A DNA stretch of 64,000 bases from Chiridota heheva. Its lineage: Eukaryota > Echinodermata > Holothuroidea > Apodida > Chiridotidae. The stretch lies in contig JAIGNY010000077.1 of the NCBI GenBank assembly GCA_020152595.1, positions 849,501 to 913,500 of the forward strand. The letters are read 5' to 3'. Positions 9,389-63,635 of the stretch are shown piece after piece. The stretch's first letter is position 1. Every line of letters begins with the position of its first letter. The position numbers and the translations under genes were made by a program. The notes beneath the pieces were generated by a model, which saw only the letters and a list, made by a program, of their open reading frames with translations, was not told the origin of the DNA and made no database searches.

Positions 9389-9618
9389 CCACCCCCCTTA
9401 AAAAAATATATGTTTGCCTTCATACCAATCCACCTTTTCAGAACAAGATGATTACTCCAAAAGGAAGCCTGGCCTAACAAAGATTGACATCTATAAAGCT
9501 AGCTGGCAAAATTGTTTTGGAGAAATTTTAACTGCTCATTTTTCATCTACCTAGCAGTCAGTTCAATCCAAACAAGACTGAATCTTCTTATAGAATCGTT
9601 ACAACATTCATTTTAACA

Positions 9619-9624
9619 TTTATT
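9619..9624 (-). promoter_or_regulatory. Poly(A) signal of the Ig-type gene
   Basis: AATAAA on the minus strand, 34 bases after the stop codon of the hydrophobic terminal exon. It implies a very short 3' UTR if used. Confidence 0.5.
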
Positions 9625-9658
9625 TTTGAACACCCATCTTGCTGTCTTCTTGGACTTC

Positions 9659-9735
9659 TTATGATATGATGATGATGACAACAACAATAGCCAAAATCAT
9701 GAAGATCGGGATAAGCCACAGCAATTCATTTTTCT
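9659..9735 (-). CDS. Terminal exon: hydrophobic anchor of the Ig-type gene
   Basis: An acceptor (TTTGTAATTTTTCTAG) is followed by a phase-1 exon reading (E)KNELLWLIPIFMILAIV, then a run of Val/Ile, one Ser, and TAA. This is a single membrane-length helix of about 20 residues with a charged N-terminal flank and no cytoplasmic tail. Such an ending fits either a GPI-anchor signal (hydrophobic to the C-terminus) or a tailless membrane anchor. The phase matches the donor of the upstream stalk exons (G|GTAATA): the junction codon becomes GAG (Glu). The poly(A) signal follows 34 bases later. The exon is too short to be found by ORF length; I identify it from splice sites, phase and hydropathy. Confidence 0.6.
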
Positions 9736-10064
9736 CTAGAAAAATTACAAAAGAGAGATATACCTCTTTATCATGATCATCCATTCTTACATGGTATTTT
9801 CACAACCTAACAAGAAAGGGAACATAAATTAAATTCTTCTTAGGCGACCTACTCTGCTTTAAAATGTTTGAGAAGTAATTTGTCCTCGTTTATAGGAGAG
9901 ACAATTCATGCAATGATTAAAGGAGCATTCTTCCGAGTCTCGGGAATATTTAAATACACTATACTTACATGTGAGGGTAAAGTAAACCTTTGGTATGAAT
10001 GTTCAAATCAACCGTAATCATTACTAATGAATAACCGGACTTCCAAATGATATAAATCCCCTTC

Positions 10065-10505
10065 TGTCACACCTGCCATCCCGCCGTCTGTTCCACATGC
10101 CATCCCATCCTACATACAGGAAATCCAGATGCCATTCCACCACATGACCCATATGCAATCAAGACGACACACACCCCACCATATGCCTTGCCACCCTGTC
10201 ACAAAGACCATGCCACCCTGTCCCACATGCCATGCCACCCTGTCCCACATGCCATACCACCCTGTTCCTCATTTCATCCCACCCTGTCCCCATGCCATCC
10301 CACCTTGTCCCGCATGCCATGCCACCCTGTCCCACATGTCATCCCACCCTGCCCCACATGTCATCCCACCCTGTCCCCATGCCATCCCACCTTGTCCCGC
10401 ATGCCATTCCTGTCTATCATAAATGCCATGACACCACCTTGTTTCACATACCATGCCACCCTGTCCCACATGCCATCCCACAGTCCTACATGCCATCCCA
10501 CCTTC
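10065..10505. repeat. CATCCCACCCTGTCCCACATG minisatellite
   Basis: About 20 units of 19-24 bp built on CATCCCACCCTGTCCCACATG. It lies in the intron between the stalk-exon array and the anchor exon. Closely related arrays occur at 36.9 and 56.5-57.9 kb. Both strands stay open through the array because of composition; I do not consider those frames coding. Confidence 0.9.
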
Positions 10506-11090
10506 ACCCCAAATTTGGAGATTATCATAAGTCTATTATGTTTCCACTTTATTCAATTAAAAACTTATTGTTTTTTTCCTATGCATTCCCAAGACAATTA
10601 ATTATAAATTCTATTGAGTCACCAGCTTTATTGTTCAACTTTTTTTTCATTTTCATTGGAGAACAAATATTTTAATTGCTATTCAAGTCTGGAATGCATT
10701 TGTCCTAAGTTCTTGCAAGGCAAGAATCTCCTTTATATAATTTTTTTTCATAAGAATAATTAAAATTCCTTTCCGAAGGCAGAATTTTTTTTTCCCCAGT
10801 AGCTGAACATTGCATGAGGTCGGACAGAAAATGGATGTGGACGAATGGTAAAGATGCTACTATAATCACTCTTCACCAACTGTTGGCGAGGGGATAATTA
10901 ATTCCTCTTTCAACAACACGTGCACCAAAATATATTTCAAAATTCCCATGAATTAACAAGCCAGCTTTATTGTTCGAAACAAGTTTCACAATGCTCACAC
11001 AAACGTTTAAGAAAATTTAAAGTAACTATTCTACTTCAAATTTGTTGCTCTTTCACATACACATAAATTGCTACACAGTTGAAGTATTAC

Positions 11091-11162
11091 CTTTCAGCTG
11101 CTCATTCTCATCCGTGACAACGTCCACAGTCGGAAATGGAGTATGTCCCGTTGTTGTAAGTT
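11091..11162 (-). CDS. Stalk exon, copy 1 (diverged)
   Basis: A 72-nt exon bounded by GAATAG acceptor and G|GTAATA donor, phase 1 at both ends. It reads (E)LTTTGHTPFPTVDVVTDENEQLK. The Thr/Pro-rich start suggests an O-glycosylated stalk, and the end is acidic and polar. Because it is symmetric, any number of copies can be joined in frame, each junction giving Glu (G|AA). It is the copy nearest the anchor exon and joins it in frame. It differs from copies 2, 4 and 5 at four of its last ten residues. The acceptor lacks a strong pyrimidine tract, which is the weakest part of the call. Confidence 0.5.
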
Positions 11163-11251
11163 CTATTCAATATTCAAGCAGAAAATTATTAAAGAAGTTT
11201 ATCAAAGTTCACATGATTTACAATATTCGGCTTACTATGTAGTTCATGTTA

Positions 11252-11729
11252 CATAACAGAGACAGTGCATTGGCCAGATTGCATGACAGAGACAGTGCAT
11301 TGGCCAGATTGCATGACATAGACAGTGCATTGGCCAGATTGCATAACAGAGGCAGTGCATTGGCCAGATTGCATGACAGAGAGTGCATTGGCCAGATTGC
11401 ATGACATAGACAGTGCATTGGCCAGATTGCATAACAGATGCAGTGCATTGGCCAGATTGCATAACAGAGGCAGTGCATTGGCCAGATTGCATGACAGAGA
11501 CAGTGCATTGGCCAGATTGCATGACAGAGAGTGCATTGGCCAGATTGCATGACATAGACAGTGCATTGGCTAGATTGCATGACAGAGAGTGCATTGGACA
11601 GATTGCATGACAGAGACAGTGCATTGGCCAGATAGCATGACAGAGACAGTGCATTGGCCAGATAGCATGACAGAGACAGTGCATTGGCCAGATTGCATGA
11701 CAGAGACAGTGCATTGGCCAGATTGCATA
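11252..11729. repeat. 30/28-bp minisatellite, unit 1
   Basis: About 16 units built on GTGCATTGGCCAGATTGCAT; long units are 30 bp, short units lack CA and are 28 bp. On the minus strand the 30-bp unit has no stop in any frame. Variants GGCTAGATTGC and GGACAGATTGC mark positions shared with the other arrays. The minus-strand edges are splice-like: TACCTTCTACAG on one side and ACATA|GTAAGC on the other. Confidence 0.95.
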
Positions 11730-12621
11730 TTTTTGCAGACTGTAGAAGGTAGGATATAATTTGAATTAAAGGTTAAATGTAAACTAGACCAGAAAGTGAG
11801 GGCATACTTTTCCAGAGACTTAAAGTATTCAGCAAAGCTCTTGACCCTCGTGGAGTGCTGCAAAACTTCTCAATCACCAATTTTTATACCAAGTAGGTAT
11901 CTGAGATTCATAAACATTAATATTTGATCCCTTTAGGAAATAAAACAGGTCTATGAATATTTAACTAGACATCAATGATGTTATAGCTCAACCCATAACA
12001 ATGCAAGAAGAATTCATTGCTTTTATTGATTTTATTTTTGTCATATGTATTTTTATGTTTTTAAAGTTTTATTTGAAGTCTATTCCATTTTTGGTAAAAA
12101 TGTTCCTATTCATTCCCAAGACAATTAATTATAAATTCTATTGAGTGGCCAGCTTTATTCTTAAACTTTTTTTTCATTTTCATGGGAGAACAAATATTTT
12201 AATTGCTATTCAAGTCTGGAATGCATTTGTCCTAAGTTCTTGCAAGGCAAGAATCTCCTTCATATAAATTTCTTTTCATAAAAATAGTTAAAATTCCTTT
12301 CCGAGGGCAGAAATCTTTTTTTCCCAGTTAGTTGAGCAATGCATGAGGTTGGACAGAAAATGGATGTGGACGAATGGTAAAGATGCCACTATAATCCCTC
12401 TTCACCAACTTTGTTGGCGAGGGGATAATTAATTCCTCTTACAACAACACGTGCACCAAAATATATTTCAAAATTCCCATAAATTAACAAGCCTGCTTTA
12501 TTGTTTGAAACAAGTTTAACAATGCTCACACAAACGTTTCAGAAAATTTAAAGACACTATTCTACTTCAAATTTGTTGCTCTTTCACATACACATAAATT
12601 GCTACACAGTTGAAGTATTAC

Positions 12622-12693
12622 CGTTCAGCTGTTCATTCTCATTCTTGATAACGTCCACAGTCGGAAATGGAGTATGTCCCGTTGTTGTAAGTT
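12622..12693 (-). CDS. Stalk exon, copy 2
   Basis: Same 72-nt phase 1-1 exon as copy 1, reading LTTTGHTPFPTVDV then IKNENEQLN, with intact GAATAG acceptor and G|GTAATA donor. Confidence 0.5.
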
Positions 12694-12779
12694 CTATTCA
12701 ATATTCAAGCAGTTAATTATTAAAGAAGTTTATCAAAGTTCACATGATTTACAATATTAAACTTACTATGTAGTTCATG

Positions 12780-13525
12780 TTACATAACAGAGACATTGCA
12801 TTGGCCAGATTGCATGACAGAGACAGTGCATTGGCCAGATTGCATGACATAGACAGTGCATTGGCCAGATTGCATGACAGAGACAGTGCATTGGCTGACA
12901 GAGAGTGCATGCCAGAGAGTGCATTGGCCAGATTGCATGACAGAGAGTGCATTGGCCAGATTGCATGACAGAGAGTGCATTGGCCAGATTGCATGACAGA
13001 GAGTGCATTGGCCAGATTGCATGACATAGACAGTGCATTGGCCAGATTGCATAACAGAGGCAGTGCATTGGCCAGATTGCATGACAGAGAGTGCATTGGC
13101 CAGATTGCATGACAGAAACAGTGCATTGACCAGATTGCATGACATAGACAGTGCATTGGCCAGATTGCATGACAGAGACAGTGCATTGGCTAGATTGCAT
13201 GACAGAGAGTGCATTGGACAGATTGCATGACAGAGAGTGCATTGGCCAGATTGCATGACATAGACAGTGCATTGGCCAGATTGCATAACAGAGGCAGTGC
13301 ATTGGCCAGATTGCATGACAGAGAGTGCATTGGCCAGATTGCATGACATAGACAGTGCATTGGCTAGATTGCATGACAGAGAGTGCATTGGACAGATTGC
13401 ATGACAGAGACAGTGCATTGGCCAGATAGCATGACAGAGACAGTGCATTGGCCAGATAGCATGACAGAGACAGTGCATTGGCCAGATTGCATGACAGAGA
13501 CAGTGCATTGGCCAGATTGCATATT
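12780..13525. repeat. 30/28-bp minisatellite, unit 2
   Basis: Same repeat as in unit 1, expanded to about 25 units, with a disturbed patch near 12,890-12,920 (GTGCATGCCAGAGAGTGCAT). On the minus strand the downstream edge reads ACATA|GTAAGT, a consensus donor. Confidence 0.95.
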
Positions 13526-14414
13526 TTTGCAGACTGTAGAAGGTAGGATATAATTTGAATTAAAGGTTAAATGTAAACTAGACCAAAAGTGAGGGCATAC
13601 TTTTCCAGAGACTTAAAGTATTCAGCAAAGCTCTTGACCCTCGTGGAGTGCTGCAAAACTTCTCAATCACCAATTTTTATACCAAGTAGGTATCTGAGAT
13701 TCATAAACATTAATATTTGATCCCTTTAGGAAATAAAACAGGTCTATGAATATTTAACTAGACATCAATGATGTTATAGCTCAACCCATAACAATGCAAG
13801 AAGAATTCATTGCTTTTATTGATTTTATTTTTGTCATATGTATTTTTATGTTTTTAAAGTTTTATTTGAAGTCTATTCCATTTTTGGTAAAAATGTTCCT
13901 ATTCATTCCCAAAACAATTAATTATAAATTCTATTGAGTGGCCAGCTTTATTCTTCAACTTTTTTTTCATTTTCATGGGAGAACAAATATTTTAATTGCT
14001 ATTCAAGTCTGGAATGCATTTGTCCTAAGTTCTTGCAAGGCAAGAATCTCCTTCATATAAATTTCTTTTCATAAAAATAGTTAAAATTCCTTTCCGAGGG
14101 CAGAAATCTTTTTTTCCCAGTTAGTTGAACAATGCATGAGGTTGGACAGAAAATGGATGTGGACGAATGGTAAAGATGCCACTATAATTCCTCTTCACCA
14201 ACTTTGTTGGCGAGGGGATAATTAATTCCTCTTACAACAACACGTGCACCAAAATATATTTCAAAATTCCCATAAATTAACAAGCCAGCTTTATTGTTTG
14301 AAACAAGTTTAACAATGCTCACACAAACGTTTCAGAAAATTTAAAGACACTATTCTACTTCAAATTTGTTGCTCTTTCACATACACATAAATTGCTACAC
14401 AGTTGAAGTATTAC

Positions 14415-14485
14415 CGTTCAGCTGTTCATTCTCATTCTTGATAACGTCCACAGTCGAAATGGAGTATGTCCCGTTGTTGTAAGTT
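14415..14485 (-). CDS. Stalk exon, copy 3 (1-nt deletion)
   Basis: Identical to copy 2 except that one G is missing in CAGTCGAAATGG (copies 2, 4 and 5 have CAGTCGGAAATGG at the same place). The exon is therefore 71 nt and would shift the frame if included. Splice sites are intact, so this copy is either skipped, toxic to the transcript, or a sequencing error in the assembly. Confidence 0.45.
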
Positions 14486-14572
14486 CTATTCAATATTCAA
14501 GCAGTTAATTATTAAAGAAGTTTATCAAAGTTCACATGATTTACAATATTCGGCTTACTATGTAGTTCATGT

Positions 14573-15298
14573 TACATAACAGAGACATTGCATTGGCCAG
14601 ATTGCATGACAGAGACAGTGCATTGGCCAGATTGCATGACATAGACAGTGCATTGGCCAGATTGCATGACAGAGACAGTGCATTGGCTAGATTGCATGAC
14701 AGAGAGTGCATTGGCCAGATTGCATGACAGAGAGTGCATGACAGAGAGTGCATTGGCCAGATTGCATGACAGAGAGTGCATTGGCCAGATTGCATGACAT
14801 AGACAGTGCATTGGCCAGATTGCATAACAGAGGCAGTGCATTGGCCAGATTGCATGACAGAGAGTGCATTGGCCAGATTGCATGACAGAAACAGTGCATT
14901 GACCAGATTGCATGACATAGACAGTGCATTGGCCAGATTGCATGACAGAGACAGTGCATTGGCTAGATTGCATGACAGAGAGTGCATTGGACAGATTGCA
15001 TGACAGAGAGTGCATTGGCCAGATTGCATGACATAGACAGTGCATTGGCCAGATTGCATAACAGAGGCAGTGCATTGGCCAGATTGCATGACAGAGAGTG
15101 CATTGGCCAGATTGCATGACATAGACAGTGCATTGGCTAGATTGCATGACAGAGAGTGCATTGGACAGATTGCATGACAGAGACAGTGCATTGGCCAGAT
15201 AGCATGACAGAGACAGTGCATTGGCCAGATAGCATGACAGAGACAGTGCATTGGCCAGATTGCATGACAGAGACAGTGCATTGGCCAGATTGCATATT
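14573..15298. repeat. 30/28-bp minisatellite, unit 3
   Basis: About 25 units. The order of variant units matches unit 2 almost exactly, including the GACAGAAACAGTGCATTGAC variant, except for the patch near the start. Confidence 0.95.
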
Positions 15299-16189
15299 TT
15301 TGCAGACTGTAGAAGGTAGGATATAATTTGAATTAAAGGTTAAATGTAAACTAGACCAAAAGTGAGGGCATACTTTTCCAGAGACTTAAAGTATTCAGCA
15401 AAGCTCTTGACCCTCGTGGAGTGCTGCAAAACTTCTCAATCACCAATTTTTATACCAAGTAGGTATCTGAGATTCATAAACATTAATATTTGATCCCTTT
15501 AGGAAATAAAACAGGTCTATGAATATTTAACTAGACATCAATGATGTTATAGCTCAACCCATAACAATGCAAGAAGAATTCATTGCTTTTATTGATTTTA
15601 TTTTTGTCATATGTATTTTTATGTTTTTAAAGTTTTATTTGAAGTCTATTCCATTTTTGGTAAAAATGTTCCTATTCATTCCCAAGACAATTAATTATAA
15701 ATTCTATTGAGTGGCCAGCTTTATTCTTCAACTTTTTTTTTCATTTTCATGGGAGAACAAATATTTTTAATTGCTATTCAAGTCTGGAATGCATTTGTCC
15801 TAAGTTCTTGCAAGGCAAGAATCTCCTTCATATAAATTTCTTTTCATAAAAATAGTTAAAATTCCTTTCCGAGGGCAGAAATCTTTTTTTCCCAGTTAGT
15901 TGAACAATGCATGAGGTTGGACAGAAAATGGATGTGGACGAATGGTAAAGATGCCACTATAATCCCTCTTCACCAACTTTGTTGGCGAGGGGATAATTAA
16001 TTCCTCTTACAACAACACGTGCACCAAAATATATTTCAAAATTCCCATAAATTAACAAGCCAGCTTTATTGTTTGAAACAAGTTTAACAATGCTCACACA
16101 AGCGTTTCAGAAAATTTAAAGACACTATTCTACTTCAAATTTGTTGCTCTTTCACATACACATAAATTGCTACACAGTTGAAGTATTAC

Positions 16190-16261
16190 CGTTCAGCTGT
16201 TCATTCTCATTCTTGATAACGTCCACAGTCGGAAATGGAGTATGTCCCGTTGTTGTAAGTT
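16190..16261 (-). CDS. Stalk exon, copy 4
   Basis: Identical in reading to copy 2, 72 nt, phase 1-1, both splice sites intact. Confidence 0.5.
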
Positions 16262-16342
16262 CTATTCAATATTCAAGCAGTTAATTATTAAAGAAGTTTA
16301 TCAAAGTTCACATGATTTACAATATTAAACACTAAGTTCATG

Positions 16343-17069
16343 TTACATAACAGAGACATTGCATTGGCCAGATTGCATGACAGAGACAGTGCATTGGCCA
16401 GATTGCATGACATAGACAGTGCATTGGCCAGATTGCATGACAGAGACAGTGCATTGGCTAGATTGCATGCCAGTGCATTGGCCAGATTGCATGACAGAGT
16501 GCATTGGCCAGATTGCATGACAGAGAGTGGCCAGATTGCATGACAGAGAGTGCATTGGCCAGATTGCATGACATAGACAGTGCATTGGCCAGATTTAACA
16601 GAGGCAGTGCATTGGCCAGATTGCATGACAGAGAGTGCATTGGCCAGATTGCATGACAGAAACAGTGCATTGACCAGATTGCATGACATAGACAGTGCAT
16701 TGGCCAGATTGCATGACAGAGACAGTGCATTGGCTAGATTGCATGACAGAGAGTGCATTGGACAGATTGCATGACAGAGAGTGCATTGGCCAGATTGCAT
16801 GACGTAGACAGTGCATTGGCCAGATTGCATAACAGAGGCAGTGCATTGGCCAGATTGCATGACAGAGAGTGCATTGGCCAGATTGCATGATATAGACAGT
16901 GCATTGGCTAGATTGCATGACAGAGAGTGCATTGGACAGATTGCATGACAGAGACAGTGCATTGGCCAGATAGCATGACAGAGACAGTACATTGGCCAGA
17001 TAGCATGACAGAGACAGTGCATTGGCCAGATTGCATGACAGAGACAGTGCATTGGCCAGATTGCATATT
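16343..17069. repeat. 30/28-bp minisatellite, unit 4
   Basis: About 25 units with several small deletions near 16,470-16,600. The splice-like edge on the minus strand is damaged here (the GTAAG seen in the other units is lost by a short deletion at about 16,330). Confidence 0.95.
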
Positions 17070-17960
17070 TTTGCAGACTGTAGAAGGTAGGATATAATTT
17101 GAATTAAAGGTTAAATGTAAACTAGACCAGAAAGTGAGGGCATACTTTTCCAGAGACTTAAAGTATTCAGCAAAGCTCTTGACCCTCGTGGAGTGCTGCA
17201 AAACTTCTCAATCACCAATTTTTATACCAAGTAGGTATCTGAGATTCATAAACATTAATATTTGATCCCTTTAGGAAATAAAACAGGTCTATGAATATTT
17301 AACTAGACATCAATGATGTTATAGCTCAACCCATAACAATGCAAGAAGAATTCATTGCTTTTATTGATTTTATTTTTGTCATATGTATTTTTATGTTTTT
17401 AAAGTTTTATTTGAAGTCTATTCCATTTTTGGTAAAAATGTTCCTATTCATTCCCAAGACAATTAATTATAAATTCTATTGAGTGGCCAGCTTTATTCTT
17501 AAACTTTTTTTTCATTTTCATGGGAGAACAAATATTTTTAATTGCTATTCAAGTCTGGAATGCATTTGTCCTAAGTTCTTGCAAGGCAAGAATCTCCTTC
17601 ATATAAATTTCTTTTCATAAAAATAGTTAAAATTCCTTTCCGAGGGCAGAATTTTTTTTTTCCCAGTTAGTTGAACAATGCATGAGGTCGGACAGAAAAT
17701 GGATGTGGACGAATGGTAAAGATGCCACTATAATCCCTCTTCACCAACTTTGTTGGCGAGGGGATAATTAATTCCTCTTACAACAACACGTGCACCAAAA
17801 TATATTTCAAAATTCCCATAAATTAACAAGCCAGCTTTATTGTTTGAAACAAGTTTAACAATGCTCACACAAACGTTTCAGAAAATTTAAAGACACTATT
17901 CTACTTCAAATTTGTTGCTCTTTCACATACACATAAATTGCTACACAGTTGAAGTATTAC

Positions 17961-18032
17961 CGTTCAGCTGTTCATTCTCATTCTTGATAACGTCCACAGT
18001 CGGAAATGGAGTATGTCCCGTTGTTGTAAGTT
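17961..18032 (-). CDS. Stalk exon, copy 5
   Basis: Identical in reading to copy 2, 72 nt, phase 1-1, both splice sites intact. It is the copy closest to the Ig exon and would be the first stalk exon in the transcript. Confidence 0.5.
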
Positions 18033-18118
18033 CTATTCAATATTCAAGCAGTTAATTATTAAAGAAGTTTATCAAAGTTCACATGATTTACAATATTCGG
18101 CTTACTATGTAGTTCATG

Positions 18119-18957
18119 TTACATAACAGAGACAGTGCATTGGCCAGATTGCATGACAGAGACAGTGCATTGGCCAGATTGCATGACATAGACAGTGCAT
18201 TGGCCAGATTGCATGACAGAGACAGTGCATTGGCTAGATTGCATGACAGAGAGTGCATTGGCCAGATTGCATGACAGAGAGTGCATTGGCCAGATTGCAT
18301 GACAGAGAGTGCATTGGCCAGATTGCATGACAGAGAGTGCATTGGCCAGATTGCATGACATAGACAGTGCATTGGCCAGATTGCATAACAGAGGCAGTGC
18401 ATTGGCCAGATTGCATGACAGATTGGCCAGATTGTGCATTGGCCAGATTGCATGACAGAAACAGTGCATTGCCCAGATTGCATGACATAGACAGTGCATT
18501 GGCCAGATTGCATGACAGAGACAGTGCATTGGCTGATTGCATGACAGAGAGTGCATTGCATGACAGAGAGTGCATTGCCAGATTGCATGACAGACAGTGC
18601 ATTGGCCAGATTGCATAACAGTGCATTAGCCAGATTGTGACATAGACAGTGCATTGGCCAGATTGCATAACAGAGGTAGTGCATTGGCCAGATTGCATGA
18701 CAGAGAGTGCATTGGCCAGATTGCATGACAGAAACAGTGCATTGACCAGATTGCATGACAGAGACAGTGCATTGACCAGATTGCATGACAGAGACAGTGC
18801 ATTGGCCAGATTGCATGAGAGTGCATTGGACAGTGCATAGACAGTGCATTGGCCAGATTGCATAACAGAGGCATGCATTGGCCATGAGTGCATTGGATTG
18901 CATGACAGAAACAGTGCATTGACCAGATTGCATGACAGAGACAGTGCATTGGCCAGA
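18119..18957. repeat. 30/28-bp minisatellite, unit 5, irregular
   Basis: The longest and most disordered array, about 28 units, with many partial units between 18,420 and 18,900. It ends abruptly at GGCCAGATAC, 30 bp before a LINE fragment, so the array edge is probably a rearrangement or insertion point. Confidence 0.95.
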
Positions 18958-18989
18958 TACAGAGGATGAGGTGAGATGTGGGTCATCCC

Positions 18990-19545
18990 AATTTAGGCTG
19001 AGTAATTAAGTAAGGACAGCCTTGGAGTCGGAGAAGATGGCAAAGTGGCTGAGCGGAGAGTACTCGATAAAGCTGAGGGCAAGGAGGATGGCCTCGGCCG
19101 AGAAGATGGACGAGTAGTTGGGAAGCCTGCTACTGAGGGTGATGTCTTGCTTGGATGATGGCAGCTGTCTTGTCGCCTTCCTTGGAGTCAATCAGCATAG
19201 ATGGAGATAAAGAGGTTAGGGTGGGTTTGGGTTTTGTGATGAATGGAGAGGTCCAGGTGGGCAGAAGGAAGGGGGTGGCCCAGGGAGGGAAAGTGGGCCA
19301 GGAGAAAAAGTTGAGAGTGGTGGGACTGATGCCGAGATGTAGGTCTAATTTGATGCGTAAGCTGAAGGGAGGAGAGGTATAAGCCCTATCAAAGAAGGTG
19401 GAGAAATTGGGGTACCTAATGAGGTTGTAAACAGAGTTCTGGGTGTTGGTGAGGGCTCTAAAAGCATAGGAGAGGCTAAGCTTTCTACACCTTAGTGTGA
19501 TAAAACCGGCAGTGGTGAAACCGACAAGAACTTCAGCAATCAGAT
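18990..19545 (-). pseudogene. LINE fragment: RT tail and start of RNase H
   Basis: On the minus strand it reads EVLVGFTTAGFITLRCRKLS, then NTQNSVYNLIRYPNFSTFF, then SPPFSLRIKLDLGI. After a frameshift near 19,190 comes SIFSAEAILLALSF and FAIFSDSKAVL. The last two blocks are the second and third conserved blocks of the RNase H domain (E in SAEA, D in FSDSKA) used by several non-LTR clades. The rest of RNase H is cut off next to the minisatellite. The fragment lies in the intron between the Ig exon and the stalk exons, in the same orientation as the gene. Confidence 0.75.
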
Positions 19546-19560
19546 TGATACCAAAATTAA

Positions 19561-19690
19561 TTTCAGGGTAATGTGATATATTTTGTAATTTCAGACTATT
19601 TGCTTACCTTCCACAAATACATCGATGGTTTCCATATTTCTTTTCATTATGAAATTTCTTCCCTTTTACAAAGATATAATTTTGAAGTTC
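19561..19690 (-). repeat. Partial tandem copy of the Ig exon
   Basis: Two blocks of the neighbouring Ig exon recur here in order: its 3' edge (AGGGTAATGTGATATATTTT at 19,564, compare 19,705) and its middle (CATTATGAAATTTCTTCCCT at about 19,645, compare 19,831). The segment between differs and ends, on the minus strand, in GGAAG|GTAAGC, a near-perfect donor. It may be a decayed second exon or a source of an alternative one. Confidence 0.6.
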
Positions 19691-19703
19691 AGCAATCATT
19701 TAC

Positions 19704-19966
19704 CCAGGGTAATGTGATATATTTTGTAATTTCAGACACTTCACACATCGTGGAAGTGGACTCTTGTTCTTTGGTTATGTTCTCAATCCCGAGAACACAA
19801 CCAGCCAGGTCAAAGTTTCCGTATTTCTTTTCATTATGAAATTTCTTCCCTTTTACGAAGATAAAATTTTGTGTATCACTCCATACACATAAAATTCCAA
19901 TATACTGTCCACACCACAGATCTACATGATCGCCAGGTTTGACCATCATAACCTCACCATTGACAG
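19704..19966 (-). CDS. Immunoglobulin-like domain exon
   Basis: Acceptor TTTTCTTCTACATGTAG, then 263 nt opening in phase 1 (T|CT, Ser) and ending before GTAAAT. The reading VKPGDHVDLWC, CVW, LGIENIT and MCEVSEITKYITL matches an Ig fold. The B-strand Cys lies at residue 19, the C-strand Trp near 29, the E-strand L-x-I-x-N near 60 and the F-strand Cys near 75, followed by a G strand. The usual Tyr two before the last Cys is replaced. There is one N-glycosylation sequon (NIT). The domain follows the signal-peptide exon in phase. The donor is phase 0, whereas the stalk exons begin in phase 1, so an exon may be missing between them. Confidence 0.65.
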
Positions 19967-20120
19967 CTACATGTAGAAGAAAATATATTTTGAAAATGTG
20001 TGGACAAAATACACATTTGTTTTTGCATTATTGAGATGAGATATAGTAAGTCACTTTTCAACACACTCTTGAAATCTTTCAAGTGAAATAACTCCCAAAT
20101 GGGATACAATATAGAAACAG

Positions 20121-20356
20121 CTTCTATTTTCAAAATGGATTTCTATTGTCAAAATGGACTGAAATAAAGCCTTCACATTACCATTATACTCCTTTTTTTG
20201 TTACTTTATAAACTATGTACCAGAATAGCAAACAAGACTTCCATTAGCTATTCTGGTACAGAGTTTTTTTAAGTACCGAAAAAGGAGAATTATGGTAATT
20301 TGAAGGCTTTATTTCAGTCCATTTTGACAATAGAAATCCATTTTAAAAATAAGAGC
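20121..20356. mobile_element. Palindromic MITE, copy 1
   Basis: Two inverted arms of about 100 bp (AAAATGGATTTCTATTGTCA through ATTACCATTATACTCC, and its complement) flank a short centre containing a second small inversion (TACCAGAATAGC with GCTATTCTGGTA). A second copy lies at 63,060-63,291. It sits in the intron between the signal-peptide and Ig exons. Confidence 0.9.
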
Positions 20357-20477
20357 TATTATGACATGGTTGTACACCATATGTGTTTCTCTAATCGTCC
20401 TCTTATCATATATATAAAAATTAAAATTCCTATAATGGATAAGCCAAGTAGCGAGACATGTCTATGTTGTATAAGGA

Positions 20478-22525
20478 AAGTGGTATATTGCCCAACATAC
20501 AGGGAGACTAAGTAGCCTAAACCTAACCTGTTAGGATGAGAATAGATCTGCTCCAAAACTGTCAAAATTCTCCTGTATGATGGGCAATAAATCACTTTCC
20601 ATCATAATCACATGCAAGGAGTAATATATTGCCCAACACCCAGGGAGGTTATGAAGCCTAAACCTAACCTGTTAGGATGAGAATAAATCTGCTCCAAAAC
20701 CTCCCTGTATGATGGACAATAAATCACTTTCCATCATAATCTACAAGGAGTGATATATTGCCCAGCACACAGGGAGGTTATGAAGCCTCAATCTTACCTG
20801 TTAGGATGAGAATAGATCTGCTCCAAAACCTCCCTGTATGATGGACAATAAATCACTTTCCATCATAATCATCATGCAAGGAGTGATATATTGCCCAACA
20901 TACAGGGAAGTTATGAAGCCTAAACCTAACCTGTTAGGATAAGAATAGATCTGCTCCAAAACCTTCCTGTATGATGGACAATAAATCACTTTCCATCATA
21001 ATCATCATGCAAGGAGTGATATATTGCCCAGCACACAGGGAGGTTATGAAGCCTTAACCTAACCTGTTAGGATGAAAATAGATCTGCTCCAAAACTGTCA
21101 AAACCTCCCTGTATGATGGGCAATACATCACTTTCCATCATAATCATCATACATGGAGAGTGATATATTGCCCAACATACAGGGAAGTTATGAAACCTAA
21201 ACCTAACCTGTTAGGATGAGAATAGTTTTGCTTACAAAGCTGTCAAAACCTTCCTGTATGATGGGCAATAAATCACTTTCCATCATAATCATCATGCAAG
21301 GAAAGATATATTGCCCAGCACACAGGGAGGTTATAAAGCCAAACCTAACCTGTTAGAATGAGAATAAATCTGCTCCAAAACTGTCAAAACCTCCCTGTAT
21401 GATGGGCAATACATCACTTTCCATCATACATAGAGAGTGATTTATTGCCCAAAATACAGGGAAGTTATGAAACCTAAACCTAACCTGTTAGGATGAGAAT
21501 AGTTTTGCTTACAAAGCTGTCAAAACCTTTCTGTATGGTGGGCAATAAATCACTTTCCATCATAATCATCATGCAAGGAGTGATATATTGCCCAACATAC
21601 AGGGAGGTTATGAAGCCTAAACCTAACCTATTAGGATGAGAATAAATCTGCTCCAAAACCTCCCTGTATGATGGACAATAAATCACTTTCCATCATAATC
21701 ATCTACAAGAAAAGATATATTGCCCAACACACAGGGAGGTTATGAAGCCTAAATCTTACCTGTTAGGATGAGAATGGATCTGCTCCAAAACCTCCCTGTA
21801 TGATGGACAATAAATCACTTTCCATCATAATCATCATGCAAGGAGTGATATATTGCCCAACATACAGGGAAGTTATGAAGCCTAAACCTAACCTGTTAGG
21901 ATGAGAATAGATCTGCTCCAAAACCTCCCTGTATGATGGGCAATATATCACTTTCCATCATAATCATCATACATGGAGAGTGATATATTGCCCAACATAC
22001 AGGGAAGTTATGAAACCTAAACCTAACCTGTTAGGATGAGAATAGTTTTGCTTACAAAGCTGTCAAAACCTTCCTGTATGATGGGCAATAAATCACTTTC
22101 CATCATAATCATCATGCAAGGAGTGATATATTGCCCAACACACAGGGAGGTTATAAAGCCTAAACCTAACCTGTTAGGATGAGAATAGATCTGCTCCAAA
22201 ACTGTCAAAACCTCCCTGTATGATGGGCAATACATCACTTTCCATCATAATCATCATACATAGAGAGTGATTTATTGCCCAAAATACAGGGAAGTTATGA
22301 AACCTAAACCTAACCTGTTAGGATGAGAATAGTTTTGCTTACAAAGCTGTCAAAACCTTTCTGTATGGTGGGCAATAAATCACTTTCCATCATAATCATC
22401 ATGCAAGGAGTGATATATTGCCCAACATACAGGGAGGTTATGAAGCCTAAACCTAACCTGTTAGGGTGAGAATAGTTCTGCTCCAAGGCTTTTAAAACCT
22501 CCCTGTTTGTGGGGCAATATATACT
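20478..22525. repeat. 138-bp satellite, about 15 units, with internal dyads
   Basis: The core AACCTGTTAGGATGAGAATA recurs 15 times between 20,524 and 22,454, a mean spacing of 138 bp. Each unit contains AGTGATATATTGCCCAACAT with ACAGGGA and, further on, TCCCTGTATGATGGGCAATA with TATCACT. These are inverted copies of one another, so each unit could form a cruciform. A longer variant with TTTTGCTTACAAAGCTGTCA recurs at 21,226, 21,500, 22,046 and 22,333, showing a two-type arrangement. Confidence 0.95.
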
Positions 22526-23048
22526 TTTCCGTTGTATGACACAGATCTGAACAAACTACTGTTATACTTTGTTCCGTTTCTAAAATCTACGGATTACAAT
22601 TTGAGCTTTAATAATTGCATGAAAATATGCTATAAACCATGAAAACATAAAAAAAAAAAAACCTTGAACTTAAGGCACTATATTAAATTATGCAAATCTT
22701 TATGTTAATTTCTGATGTCATCAGAAACGAAAACCACTGAAATTTCTTATGCTAACTTATTGTGCTTCAATCCTTCACAAACGTTATTTGAATAGTAGCA
22801 GTTGCATGTGGCCAATATTTTGAATCTCCATCATACTCTTTATAAAATTTTAGCAGGAAAAAACAGTCTAATGATTTCCAGCTACTGAAATATCTTGAGT
22901 TTCTTTTGTTCTAGTACATGGTACCATTAGTGGTCAGCAACCTTTGTATAAGAAAAGTTGTTATCTCAAAGTTATAAAATTGAGTCCGAATCGTAAAACC
23001 CTTCACACGGAATTGACCATCTACAGACATAAAGCCATCACTACTTAC

Positions 23049-23108
23049 AAAGAATCGGAAACACGAGAAGTACACCAAACAGTTTCATCCAAAATGCTGC
23101 TGATGTAT
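23049..23108 (-). CDS. Signal-peptide exon of the Ig-type gene
   Basis: A 60-nt exon between a good acceptor (TTTGTTTCTTGTTATAG) and a consensus donor (GTAAGT). ATG at 23,088 starts MKLFGVLLVFPIL, a textbook signal-peptide shape (one Lys, then an 11-residue hydrophobic core), ending in phase 1. Spliced to the Ig exon it gives ...FPIL-S-VNGEV, with a plausible cleavage region at SVNG. The frame is also open through the 20 nt before ATG, so if the upstream exon were coding the helix could instead be internal. I prefer the signal peptide because the next exon is an extracellular domain. Confidence 0.6.
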
Positions 23109-23399
23109 CTATAACAAGAAACAAATAAGATAATAAAGCTGTGTAATTTTCAATAAAACATACAATTTAAATTTCTTGCACAAATAAGACAACAATTACT
23201 ATTATTCTTGCTTTCTGTCCTAAAATGATGAAAACAACCAAATAAAGCAACCGGGTTGAGTTTCATTTAATATTTTTAAATAAAGAAGCTGACAAAGTGT
23301 TTTTGTGTAATACTACCCTTTTATGCCCCCTGTAATGAGATAATATGTAATTTCATTATCAATTTAGAAGTTCATTTTCAAAGTGAAAATTTGAAGCAT

Positions 23400-23660
23400 C
23401 CTATATCTACAATATCCTACTTGTTTAAATTTCTTTTCAAGCCAGGTTTGACTGTTTCAACTGCTATTCAGACCAGGAATCAGTTCCTTTAAGGCAAACT
23501 TTCTGTTCTTAAAATTGTATTTCAAACGAGATATAAACTGCTAGACCCTGACTTATGTTTTCAGTTTTATTCCAGACAAAAATTAGTGAACGAGATATAA
23601 ATTGCAGTTGAGACCAACTTTTCAAGTTGTCAAAGGTTTGTCAAATGTAATTGTCACCAA
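23400..23660. repeat. Intronic dispersed repeat
   Basis: Contains AAGCCAGGTTTGACTGTTTC, CTGCTATTCAGACCAGGAAT and GAGATATAAACTGC blocks that recur, diverged, at 27,918-28,140 and, more distantly, in each 1.77-kb unit (TTGCTATTCAAGTCTGGAAT). It links the Ig-like region at 27-28 kb with the main gene. Confidence 0.5.
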
Positions 23661-23834
23661 TCCCCCCTCCCCCACCCCCGAGCGTTGTTTACAATATTAA
23701 TTCATGCTGAATGCTGAAAAATGTACTAAAACTGATTTAAAATATTGATTGGATGATTACAGTATAGGTGCTTAGAACATTGAAGATGATAAAGCAAATC
23801 TATAAGGGGGAATACGAATTGTTCAATAACTTAC

Positions 23835-23953
23835 AGTCATATTGTTGGAACACAGGAGACTTGCCACATTTCTGCTGGTGCTTAAACTTGGCATAAGAGT
23901 CATGTTTATTATTTTTCTTTTTGGGAGCACAGGTTTTGTCTACATGTATGGAG
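23835..23953 (-). CDS. Upstream exon, leader or coding
   Basis: A 119-nt segment with strong splice sites on both sides (TTTCTTTGCAG and GACT|GTAAGT) on the minus strand. One frame is open: HVDKTCAPKKKNN ... FKHQQKCGKSPVFQQYD. It joins the next exon in phase. With two Cys and many Lys it resembles no family I know, and 39 open codons can arise by chance, so it may be a 5' untranslated exon. Confidence 0.4.
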
Positions 23954-24715
23954 CTGCAAAGAAATTATTATATATAAATATAAAGAAGAGATACACTTCA
24001 TGAACCAGGTAACAAAATGCATGTGTATGCATGCATCATAAATGCTTTAAGTATAAAAGATGTTTTCCTGATCTTACATGTCATTTATAATAGATAAGCC
24101 CTTTGTCTTCTCATAATGTGACACATATAAAAGCAGTCTGACATTAAAAGATATATTACAACATAGTTTATGTAATGTTTGAGCAGTCACATATCAAAAG
24201 ATGTATCATTATTATTATTTTCATGATGATATTAATATTAGTATTATTATAATATTTGTATTATTATGACATATTTTTTGTAAGGTTTTGAGCAGTTAGA
24301 CATTGAAAGATTACAAACTTTAAATATGAAACCCTCAATTTCATCTTCATAATTTACAGCAGCTCATAATCTAAATACATGTGTTTTGAAGTCAATTATT
24401 ATCATGAGGTGTACCTCTGCTTTCCGTTTAGTATGCACTGCAACCGCCGATTTTGGCCAAAATCGACGTTTGCACATCACACGCCTCGCCAGAGCAAGGG
24501 CAACCTAATATGATATCATTATTTGCTTGGCCTGGCACAGCTACGATCTAATTACATTGCCAACACGTGCGAGTGTAATATGATGCCTCTATCTGATGCA
24601 CGTTGGGCATATTAATAATGCCCTTATGATAGCATACTGAAAGGAAAGAGCTTGCACACTTAATGATATTTCGACATGGTTGAATCCATCTAGGCCATTA
24701 GGCCCATAGGGTCGG

Positions 24716-27744: not shown

Positions 27745-27904
27745 CTACAGTATGTTTACAAAAGCTGAACAACTAAATGTTATCTTGTCAGATCTAAATG
27801 ATACTTAACCTTGAAATGTGTCAGTTGGAAAGTCTTGCCTAATTAAATTTGAAGTATTGGCACACTATTCTATTCTTGGAGGTCTTCCCACTGTTCATTA
27901 TATC

Positions 27905-28140
27905 CTAATTGTTTATTTTATTTTTAAGCCAGGTTTGATTGTTTCAACTGCAATTCAGATCAGGAATCATTTCTTTTCAGGCAAACTTACCATTGTCATG
28001 ATTTTTCTTGTAAGTGAGATGTAAATTGCTATTGAGATCTAGAATTCTTGATTACAGTTCTTTTCAGGCCAGATTTGCCTTTTGTGAGTGGTTTAGTGAG
28101 ATAGAAATTGCTATCGAGACCAAGGCTTATTGTTCCCACT
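27905..28140. repeat. Intronic dispersed repeat, second copy
   Basis: Diverged copy of the sequence at 23,400-23,660 (AAGCCAGGTTTGATTGTTTC, CAGATCAGGAATCATTTCTT), followed by two further weak internal repeats of the same type. Confidence 0.5.
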
Positions 28141-44848: not shown

Positions 44849-45533
44849 TTTGCACGGAAAATCAAAACTCAATATAACGCAAGTATTTGAAAGAAAGGAA
44901 TCGCATTTTATTTGTACGGCACGTCGTTTGTTCACAAAATGAATCCTCTGGACCAGGCTCGTGCCCCTAAAACAAAGATTTGGAGAAAATAATAGGAAGG
45001 TTACCACAAGGCTGTCTCGCAAAAGGACAAAAGGTTGGGAATGGCGGGCGTACTGTAAAGATGATTGTAGCTATATCGCATAAAAGTAATGTTGTTTGCA
45101 GCAAGCCTTACAAAGAAATGAATGGTGCATTTTTTGCAAAATTGATCAACGACCATTTTGAAGATATTTACCGAAAAGCACAAAAGCCCAATACGCATTT
45201 ATTCGCGCAAGATAGTGACCCCTCACAAAACAGCGGCAAGGCTCGAGAAGCTTTACGAAGTGTAAACGCACAAGTGCTCAAGATCCCCTCCCCTCCCAGA
45301 AGTCCCGACATCAACCCTATTGAGAATATTTTTAAATATGTTGGCGAAAAATTGTGGCGTGACGTGACGCTCTGGAAAAGGAAATATCTCGTGAAAATTT
45401 TCAACAATTTGAACGGCGAGTTATACAAACCATAACATCTGTTCCATGTGATTATATTGACAGAGTCATTAAAAGCATGTCCAAAAGGATGAATGACATT
45501 ATTAGAAGAAAAGGACAACGCCTCAAATATTAG
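44849..45533 (+). pseudogene. Tc1/mariner-type transposase, inactivated
   Basis: Cut-and-paste transposase with DDE catalysis. Readable blocks are FARKIKTQYN, KKGIAFYL, FVHKMNPLDQARAPKTKIW, then after a frameshift near 45,000 GCLAKGQKVGNGG, LFAQDSDPSQNS and SPPRSPDINPIENIF, and after a second shift near 45,420 YIDRVIKSMSKRM to a stop at 45,531. The second Asp (AQD) and the Glu (PIEN) are separated by 36 residues, giving DD36E by my count. The first catalytic Asp position reads Tyr (TAC, 44,915-44,917). There is also a TGA at 44,888 and two stops at 45,000-45,005. The N-terminal DNA-binding part and the terminal inverted repeats are not recognisable. Confidence 0.85.
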
Positions 45534-46899: not shown

Positions 46900-49800
46900 A
46901 ACATAGTTACAATGATTATCTGGAGATTCAAATGGACTGCATTTTATACCTGTATTTTGCTTATTTTTTGCTGCTTTGGAAGGATTTCTTATGCAGTTTC
47001 AGTTTTCAGCCAAAAAACACACAGCGTTCACAGTTCAATGACCATGATGTACAAGTATACACCTAATACGCTACGTTTTCTGCGACCAAATTGGCCAATT
47101 AACGGATTAAGCAGTCAAGAACTTCAGTGCATCAAAGAACTTGGTATTGATCGCAAATTCCATCCCGTATGTACAATACATGAGTGTGAAAGCCATGCAA
47201 TAGGTACTATTCAACGCAAATATCGGGGGTAAACGAGGAAAAAATTCTAGGATGAATTATTCTGCAAAACGAAGAAACAAATATTTTTCTAACTTTGACA
47301 TTATTACAGGACCAAATCATGGTAATCTTCGCTCCCTGAATAAATGTGTGGATATTATGTCAAAACCACGCAACCTTAGTTTTGCAACTGTTAACGTCCA
47401 GTCTCTCGCCAAAAAGTTTAATCCACTGCTTGAACATACCTGTAAGTTCGGATACGATGTTATGACACTAACAGAGACTTGGATTAAGGTTATTGACGAC
47501 CATACCAAAGCACAATTCGATGCGGTTGGTTTAAACATTCAAATTTCACCACGGCAGGAGAGACAAGGTGGTGGCGTTGGCCTTATATGCAAATCACATT
47601 TTTTCTGTGAAATTATTCCGGAGTTAACAAGATCATGTGAAACATTTGAAGTCGCTACATGGCTAGTAAAGGGCAAACAGTGGTCTCTTGTCCTACCAGT
47701 CATCTACAGACCACCTTACTCTCTATATCACAAGTACACAATATCCCAATTTTGTGATGAATTTGCTGACTTCATGTGTAGTCTAAATTTACATAATTAT
47801 GACTTCATTGTTAGTGGCGATATTAACATTCACTATAATGACAAGGAAGACTCAGACAATCAAACTTACATGGAACTTCTCTCGCATTTCAATCTAACAC
47901 AACATGTCGTCTGCCCAACCCATAAGCTAGGAAATACACTGGACCATATTATTTCGTCAAACTCTTCAATTGCTCCATTGGAATTCACTGTTCCTTGTGA
48001 TGACTTGGTTTTTTCTGACCATTCAGTCATAAGTACTCGTGTGTCTTTCATTGTAGACGATGTAGAGCGAAAATTGATTAAGTTCAGACCAATGAAAAAG
48101 GTGAACCCACATGATGTAACCAATGGAATCAATGATATCGTTTGTGATATCATGGTCAGCTCCAGTCATAGTGTGGATTCAATCACCAGTGAGTTGAATG
48201 ATGGTCTTACCTCACTATTGGAGAACCTTGCACCTCTCAAAAGTAAACGTATTTCTACGCACACGCAACATTTGTGGTTTAGCAATGAGTTGTCAGAACT
48301 AAAGCGAAAGAAGCGTCTTGAGAAACAATGGCGCTTGTCCAAGAGACTTGATCACTGGAACGAATACAAGGAATGTAGAGCGAAATATAACCAATCACTT
48401 CATACAGCTAAAGTACAATGCTATTCACAGGCCATATCTGACTGTGGTAATGACTCAAAGCGTTTGTTCAATACTGTATCAGGTCTGTTAGGTAAGACAT
48501 CCGCAACCAGTTTCCAGAAGACTGTGATTCGAACTTACTCGCAAATAATTTCGCGGACTTTTTCATTCGAAAATTGTAAAAATCCGACAGGAATTAAAGG
48601 AATTTCCATCATATTCAGCTCCGTTTCGCACTTGTCCTCGTTTTTGTGCATTTTTACCTGTGTCGGAAACCACCGCATTTAAATGTTATGAGATCTTCCA
48701 AACCAACCACGGCTGAGATTGACCCGTGTCCTTCGTCTTGGATTAAAGACAACTTGATACGTTTGTGCCTCTCATGACTCGTATAGTCAATCTTTCATTT
48801 ACTTCTGGCATGTTCGAGCATCTTGGAAAAAGGCAGTTGTCCTCCCTCTTCTTAAAAAGCAAGGTCTGGATCTTATCCCGCTAATTATCGACCCATATCC
48901 AATCTCACATATGTGTCAAAGGTAGTGGAAAATGCGCACTTCTACAGTTCAATGATCATCTCTCAAATGGTGACCTTCTACCGTCATATCAAAGTGCTTA
49001 CCGCAGCAATTATAGTACAGAGACGGCACTTATAAAAATACATTGTGACATATTGGCAGCCATGGAAAATCAAAAAGTTATAGCACTTGTTGGTCTCGAT
49101 ATGTCCGCGGCATTTGACACCGTCGACCACGCCATTCTCTTAAAGACTTTAAGCAACATGTATGGAGTACAGGATGACGCACTGGCGTGGTTCCAAAGCT
49201 ATCTGTCCAACAGATCATTTTATGTTTCAGTTCAGGATGCTTCTTCTGATTACAAGAACACAAACTTCTCTGTACCCCAAGGCTCAATACTTGGGCCAGT
49301 GTTGTATTCCACTTATGCCAGCCCGTTAGGTGGTGTAATTTATCCATTGACATCAATGTCATGGGATGTGCAGACAACCATGCTCTCTATAAAGCATTTA
49401 CACCCAGAGGAGAACTTGAAAGAGATGCCATTTTAAACCTGGAAAGTTGCCTATCTGAAGTTCACTCTTGAATGAATACAAACAAATCAAAACCCAACAT
49501 CGTAAAACAGATTTTATTTTGTTTGGTAGCAAATACCAACTGCAAAAGTGCAACTCCCATTCCATGGTTATGAGTGGTATCGAAGTAAACAAATCAACCT
49601 CGATCAAATATTTTGAAGTTTACTGGAATGAATCACTGCTATTTCGCCAAGAGATTAAGGCTAAATGTAAAACTGCACTCTTCAACCTCAGTAGGGTCAG
49701 GAGCATAAGGGAGTACTTGAATATTTATATTAGCCAAACGCTTGCCTCATCTCTGGTTTAACTTCACCTATTCAAACACCTTGTACTATGATCTTCTTGA

Positions 49801-62864: not shown

Positions 62865-63059
62865 AAACAATATGGAGTGTGTCATAAAGAGACTATATAA
62901 ATTATGATATAGAGGCACAATACATCACAATACTTTGGACCAATGTTGGTAATTCAGTGCTCATCGGGCGAATAGGTAAAAGGTCTTTTTTGAATTACTG
63001 ATGAGGGTATTATTGGGGCAATTCCACCACCACGGCCCTCAGTGTCGAGGCCTTTACAG

Positions 63060-63291
63060 CTTCTATTTTCAAAATGGATTTCTATTGTCAAAATGGACTG
63101 GAATAAAGCCTTCACATTACCATTATACTCCTTTTTTGGTACTTAATAAACTATGTACCAAAATAGCAAACAAAATTGTTGTTAGCTATTCTGGTATTGA
63201 GTTTTTTAAGTACCAAAAAGGGGTATAATGGTAATTTTAAGGCTTTATTCCAGTCCATTTTGACAATAGAAATCCATTTTGAAAATAGAAG
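63060..63291. mobile_element. Palindromic MITE, copy 2
   Basis: Second copy of the element at 20,121-20,356, with longer perfect arms (CTTCTATTTTCAAAATGGAT at the left, its complement at the right). CAG lies next to both ends. Confidence 0.9.
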
Positions 63292-63635
63292 CAGTCTAAA
63301 TGTATTTTACAACTTCTATGTACTATGTAGGGATTTGTGAGCGAGTAAGTTGTTTTCAAGCTTCAAGAATAACCTAAAGAAATTCAAATAACTTTCAAAA
63401 GGGCACCTCCTACCCCGGTCCGCTCTCAACTTTCAAAATGTCACTTCCTTCCCCGTCCGCCCCTAACTTTCGAAAGGGCACCTCCTGCCCCTTCGCCTTC
63501 AAGGGAGGTCACAACTGATCAGAACTTCTCCATACATTAAACAGTATTCAAACTTCGAGTAAAGCCATAACATCACAGTAATTTGAAGGCGGATTATTCT
63601 GTTCAGAATTTTAAGTTCTTTCTCAGACTATGATC

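Follow-up and report, generated by a model that had tools for sequence, protein, structure and literature searches.

Different people carry between 2 and 5 hinge exons in the gene IGHG3, as outlined in PMC8674132, and the length of the hinge is described in PMC7218058 as affecting antibody-dependent cellular cytotoxicity (ADCC). In the sea urchin, the immune-type Sp185/333 genes are found in repeat-rich DNA, where short tandem repeats and segmental duplications are discussed as sources of instability (PMC5103432). As to duplicated stalk exons, nothing relevant appeared among the literature matches listed.

Here we describe a locus of the holothurian Chiridota heheva, contained in a window of 64,000 nucleotides (positions 849501-913500 of contig JAIGNY010000077.1, within the 1.10-Gb assembly GCA_020152595.1 of 3744 contigs). 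An earlier note, made from the letters alone, had read a series of short exon-like pieces on the minus strand as one gene for an immunoglobulin (Ig)-type surface protein with a tandemly amplified stalk exon. A segment with phase 1 at both ends has indeed been amplified in tandem, but its place in a working Ig gene is less certain. The explanation that we favor, at a probability of roughly 0.42, is that the locus holds a single-copy gene, real or until recently real, that encodes a small type I membrane protein. The protein would have one divergent Ig-like domain, and in the gene the Ig exon would have been rearranged and the stalk copies amplified. The existence of a gene is plausible but not proven and, if there is one, it is probably damaged at the Ig exon in this haplotype.

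A single assembly was examined. All splice-site scores, exon patterns and counts of donor and acceptor phases rely on approximate frequency matrices untrained on this host, and ranks are given against the 6841 AG and 6684 GT sites of the window. Wider scans covered both strands of 194 kb around the window and were set against Markov sequence controls; the exon patterns and thresholds of this comparison were written with the exons already in view, so that the control counts flatter the finding.

The stalk-segment array

The unit carrying the stalk segment is present five times, at spacings of 1771, 1775, 1793, and 1531 nt. The array (10576-18958) is made of five spacers, each with a 30-bp minisatellite block of 477-837 bp on its higher-coordinate side. 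The spacers measure ca. 1.05 kb, except that of unit 1, which is truncated to 676 bp. The minisatellite is thus found between all adjacent units, a point in favor of the explanation preferred here, and at the right end of the array, the left end being the truncated unit 1 without minisatellite. The 1.77-kb unit of the earlier note is correct in its five copies and too uniform in its length. A search of the genome with the stalk segment and its flank, in which very common words are skipped, returned these five places only.

On the minus strand, the segment is 72 nt long with phase 1 at both ends in units 5 (17961-18032), 4 (16190-16261), 2 (12622-12693), and 1 (11091-11162), whereas that of unit 3 (14415-14485) has 71 nt, one base short, and is frameshifted. 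Four of the five copies thus form the tandem of short equal-phase segments that defines an array of the IGHG3 type. The intact copies of units 2, 4, and 5 are identical, while unit 1, the oldest, carries five changes with respect to the others. The frameshift in unit 3 leaves no more than four readable modules, one short of a five-module protein in this assembly. The range of one to five modules that had been proposed has to be shortened accordingly, and the suggested junction 16,190/12,693 in fact passes over the frameshifted copy without mention of it.

The minisatellite blocks between the units suggest unequal exchange, by which the stalk-bearing spacer would have grown to five copies independently of what happened at the Ig exon. 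Pairwise spacer divergence is only 0.57-1.05% among units 2-5 (4.4-5.8% between unit 1 and these), which makes a variable number of units plausible, as far as can be judged from one sequence. If the segment is an exon, as we infer, its symmetry (1/1) would allow intact copies to be gained, lost or skipped without a shift of frame.

The exon-like pieces and their order

The gene order in the favored explanation would be signal peptide, Ig exon, short Thr/Pro stalk exon and anchor, linked by phase-1 introns. The signal-peptide-like exon (23049-23108, minus; MKLFGVLLVFPIL) has a good acceptor, equalled by only 53 of the 6841 AG sites, and a phase-1 donor T|GTAAGT of 4.2 bits. At the other end, the terminal exon (9659-9735, minus) has a phase-1 acceptor that is also good (90 of 6841 as high) and encodes a hydrophobic transmembrane (TM) anchor, EKNELLWLIPIFMILAIVVVIIIIS, before the stop codon, 35 nt past which an AATAAA begins at 9624. 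The frames of the signal-peptide, Ig and TM exons are open. All the pieces listed in the earlier note, with their splice dinucleotides and phases, are present at the coordinates it gave, and they lie on one strand, in order, with phase-1 ends throughout except at the 3′ end of the Ig exon.

This agreement of strand, order and phase, together with the quality of the two outer acceptors, speaks for a gene. So does the rarity of the terminal exon, as phase-1 TM terminal exons were matched four times, at three places, in the 194 kb, vs. 1, 0, 0, and 0 in the Markov controls. The codon use of the stalk also resembles that of host Ig genes, on which the model was trained, being equalled by 1.2% and 0.6% of random open segments, drawn from the entire 194 kb with tandem repeats and the tested exons included. 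The joint order of the exon chain is above expectation, which is suggestive, yet no proof.

Two further stretches near this chain were discarded. One, on the minus strand at 23835-23952 (IHVDKTCAPKKKN...), has no in-frame Met and its codon use is undistinctive (53% of random segments equal it). The other is a micro-exon-like stretch of 16 nt (9791-9806, minus) that by hand translation reaches a stop in the frames tried; it has a strong acceptor (10.2) and a good donor (7.3) and is located 55 nt ahead of the TM exon. Search by tblastn over the 194 kb of contig gave no convincing further copies of any exon, the leftover matches being weak or isoleucine-rich repeats.

In what would be the first intron there is a satellite (20479-22527), 15 units of which carry on the sense strand CTAACAG|GTTAG or a close variant, 14 of them exact (CTAACAGGT[AT]AG) and one with CTAATAG. 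The motif joins an acceptor and a donor at one point, resembling recursive splice sites, and two units carry CAG|GTAAGA (11.4 bits); none was found elsewhere in the 194 kb. Within the satellite, the minus strand of 22104-22199 gave a sub-threshold match to FAM176 (E 8.6e-06, 26.1 bits against a cut-off of 31.5) that is probably spurious. Some 130 bp upstream of the signal-peptide exon (23412-23543) are repeated 4.5 kb off, at 27900-28031, with 80% identity.

The Ig-like exon and its partial duplicate

The Ig-like exon, here called copy A, covers 19704-19966 of the minus strand. Its acceptor at 19966 is in phase 1 and of fair quality (223 of 6841 as high), its frame runs through TMCEV, and its donors are in phase 0 only. 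Its open frame of 112 amino acids holds four cysteines, in WCGQ, CVW, GCVLGI, and MCEV, and the B-strand cysteine, C-strand tryptophan and F-strand cysteine follow in the Ig order (WCGQ...CVW...MCEV), a pattern that was written with the exon in view. Both candidate ends, after 19740 and after 19704, are in phase 0, with 1814 and 524 of the 6684 GT sites scoring as high, and no usable phase-1 donor was found in copy A. The weak joint between a phase-0 Ig end and a phase-1 stalk start, to which the earlier note had itself pointed, is therefore real.

The habit of the host makes this end stand out. We surveyed the 15 single-Ig loci among the 30 V-set loci fetched from the genome (the remaining 15 are longer frames), and the best donor was in phase 1 in 12 of the 15. 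The best acceptor was in phase 1 in 13, although in three of these it sits within the matched domain; of the other two, one was in phase 0 and one had no acceptor above threshold. The rule of a phase-1 intron on both sides, which counts for the gene, is kept at the start of the Ig exon and not at the end of copy A.

The missing phase is supplied nearby. A partial duplicate immediately downstream of the Ig exon, copy B (19564-19684, minus), had been overlooked. In it, two stretches that match copy A, one of 57 nt (94.7% identity) and one of 33 nt (100%), enclose a different middle (19608-19629, minus; frame TIDVFVEG|) that may be an unrelated insertion. After 19608 stands the only strong phase-1 donor for the Ig exon, AAG|GTAAGC, with 11.1 bits, a score reached by 7 of the 6684 GT sites, itself counted. 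In the simplest history, the Ig exon would have been duplicated in tandem on a small scale, and the two copies would have lost complementary parts. Most of the domain frame would survive in copy A, but not the 3′ end with its donor; copy B would retain a 3′ end with the strong phase-1 donor, but not the center. The flawed joint between Ig exon and stalk thus looks like a real lesion, with the Ig frame mostly in one partial copy and the phase-1 donor in the other. As a consequence of these complementary losses, the long protein could not be spliced in frame from strong sites in this haplotype. Copy B as the source of the last Ig strand is unproven.

Alternative explanations

A close rival, which we hold to be somewhat doubtful, is that the repeat-rich DNA of the locus is non-coding, that the pieces are open stretches within it, and that the array is a tandem amplification of the ordinary kind. 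Hydrophobic frames and AG and GT dinucleotides abound in AT-rich DNA, which would be why the pieces can be linked, and the controls show how easily some of them arise. Signal-peptide-like first exons numbered 13 in the 194 kb vs. 5, 9, 7, 8, and 7 in Markov sequence, and stalk-like segments 26 (four of them the present copies) vs. 13, 14, 16, 26, and 12. Frames with the Ig pattern were found twice, one of them a minisatellite, and in 20 Markov runs of 194 kb the cysteine/tryptophan pattern was matched by chance 13 times.

Several results weigh against the gene that we favor or speak for this rival. The stalk acceptor is poor, with 2823 of the 6841 AG sites scoring as high for four copies and 2163 for unit 1; the donors are middling (589 of 6684, and 295 for unit 1). 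Four of the five stalk changes in unit 1 alter the residue by hand reading, so that there is no sign of constraint, in numbers that are tiny. Codon use is undistinctive for the Ig, signal-peptide and TM exons, which 20, 68, and 48% of random open segments equal, respectively, and the Ig exon lacks an in-phase donor. No profile test established the Ig-like domain of the earlier note. Pfam lists no Ig family for the exon at E ≤ 10 (a longer frame has one non-Ig match, E 0.097), nor any Ig match at E ≤ 1 in the three minus frames of 9500-24496, and the curated V-set cut-off (PF07686) is not reached. A sequence search of the PDB gave seven weak matches, none of them to an Ig. Two homologue searches, with 58 and 7 candidates, found none at E ≤ 10, their exact-word seeding being insensitive to distant relatives. 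With the copy B piece added as the last strand, the V-set score gains no more than it does from random tails, of which 320 in 1000 score at least as high.

A further comparison was with the host itself, using a V-set profile built from 30 loci fetched from the same genome, out of at least 58 matches listed. It places the Ig exon second among 2047 frames of at least 40 amino acids in the 194 kb, with 6.7 bits, a rank that argues for the gene, but the score is not significant (E 0.81). With hhalign, the 15.4 of the exon is reached by 3 of 197 control frames, whereas in a leave-one-out test the 30 host V-set domains score 48-144, a gap that is biased by the choice of these domains through a V-set search. 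Structure prediction was uninformative: AlphaFold from the single sequence gave a predicted local distance difference test score (pLDDT) of 51, and Foldseek found no match at E ≤ 0.001. A genome search for paralogues found only the exon itself and its partial copy (three candidates scored). Still, chance would have to account for four kinds of exon that agree in order, strand and phase, for a TM terminal exon rare in the controls, for the codon signal of the stalk, for the profile rank of the Ig exon, and for a top-ranking phase-1 donor being located in its duplicate.

That the gene works as it stands, with a stalk varying in length by splicing or copy number and an Ig-to-stalk splice that escapes recognition here, is unlikely: four of the five stalk copies are intact and symmetric, the signal-peptide, Ig and TM frames are open, units 2-5 are ca. 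99% identical, and IGHG3, with its 2 to 5 hinge exons between people as outlined in PMC8674132, shows that the design exists, but copy A has no usable phase-1 donor, the stalk acceptor is weak, and one of the stalk copies carries a frameshift. By hand reading, moreover, the stalk in phase 0 or 2 hits a stop, and an in-frame splice from the copy A donor at 19704 to copy B would need an intron of ca. 41 nt whose acceptor is poor. A plus-strand gene spanning the Ig exon was also considered and rejected, as the plus acceptors in that region are merely moderate.

The rearranged gene that we favor could have a wider meaning if its stalk array were the length adjuster of an invertebrate Ig surface receptor, operated by unequal exchange between the 30-bp repeats, with the split Ig exon one allele among intact ones. 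We consider this quite improbable. If it were true, whole phase-1 exons would be added and removed and the reach of the receptor would differ between individuals, a parallel to the hinge variation of IGHG3 far from antibodies. If the gene itself is real, it would be another case, outside vertebrate antibodies, of the distance from Ig domain to membrane being set by the number of tandem exons, with a visible recombination substrate and a between-individual variation that could be measured directly. If the gene is not real, the locus is an example of how well repeat-rich DNA can imitate a phase-consistent gene. The immune or coelomocyte context of the locus is a guess.

Other features of the window and the genome

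A palindromic element of ca. 245 bp (20116-20360), similar to a miniature inverted-repeat transposable element, has copies at 63056-63295. At 44971-45435, 47204-48682, and 48885-49436 there are a transposase frame of the Tc1/mariner type (DDE_3) and frames for the endonuclease and reverse transcriptase of a long interspersed nuclear element, whose named relatives are from corals, fish and sea urchin.

Elsewhere in the genome, host V-set matches lie within open frames that run to several hundred residues, the longest having 912 apart from one of 2203. The loci of this kind include L048, L033, and L034 (contigs C2824, C134, and C898, respectively), and others are on C3134 and C1297. When read through, L048 and L033 look like a signal peptide, three Ig domains, an anchor and a tail in a single exon, and L034 has several Ig domains. 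They may be a family of intronless Ig receptors arranged in clusters.

Comparison with known systems

Within the host, the Ig exon is like the single-V-set exons in its phase-1 acceptor and, by eye, in its two cysteines and tryptophan in Ig-like order. It differs from them in two respects: L023 and L049, the two host exons tested individually, reach the Pfam V-set cut-off, and in 12 of the 15 single-V-set loci, chosen in the first place as V-set matches, the best donor is in phase 1. To our knowledge, the Sp185/333 protein of the sea urchin is unrelated to the one predicted here. Its genes are comparable as an immune-type setting in repeat-rich DNA; unlike the one locus with exon-level amplification described here, they are outlined in PMC5103432 as a clustered multigene family.

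The closest known design is that of human IGHG3. In both cases a short hinge or putative stalk exon stands in tandem beside Ig or Ig-like exons, whole exons could be gained or lost, and the reach of the product would differ as a result (as far as outlined in PMC8674132 and PMC7218058). In IGHG3, which codes for an antibody heavy chain, the repeat is ca. 200 bp long and its variation was shown by genotyping, whereas the C. heheva locus, known from one assembly, has a unit of 1.5-1.8 kb with a minisatellite and would encode a membrane-anchored protein.

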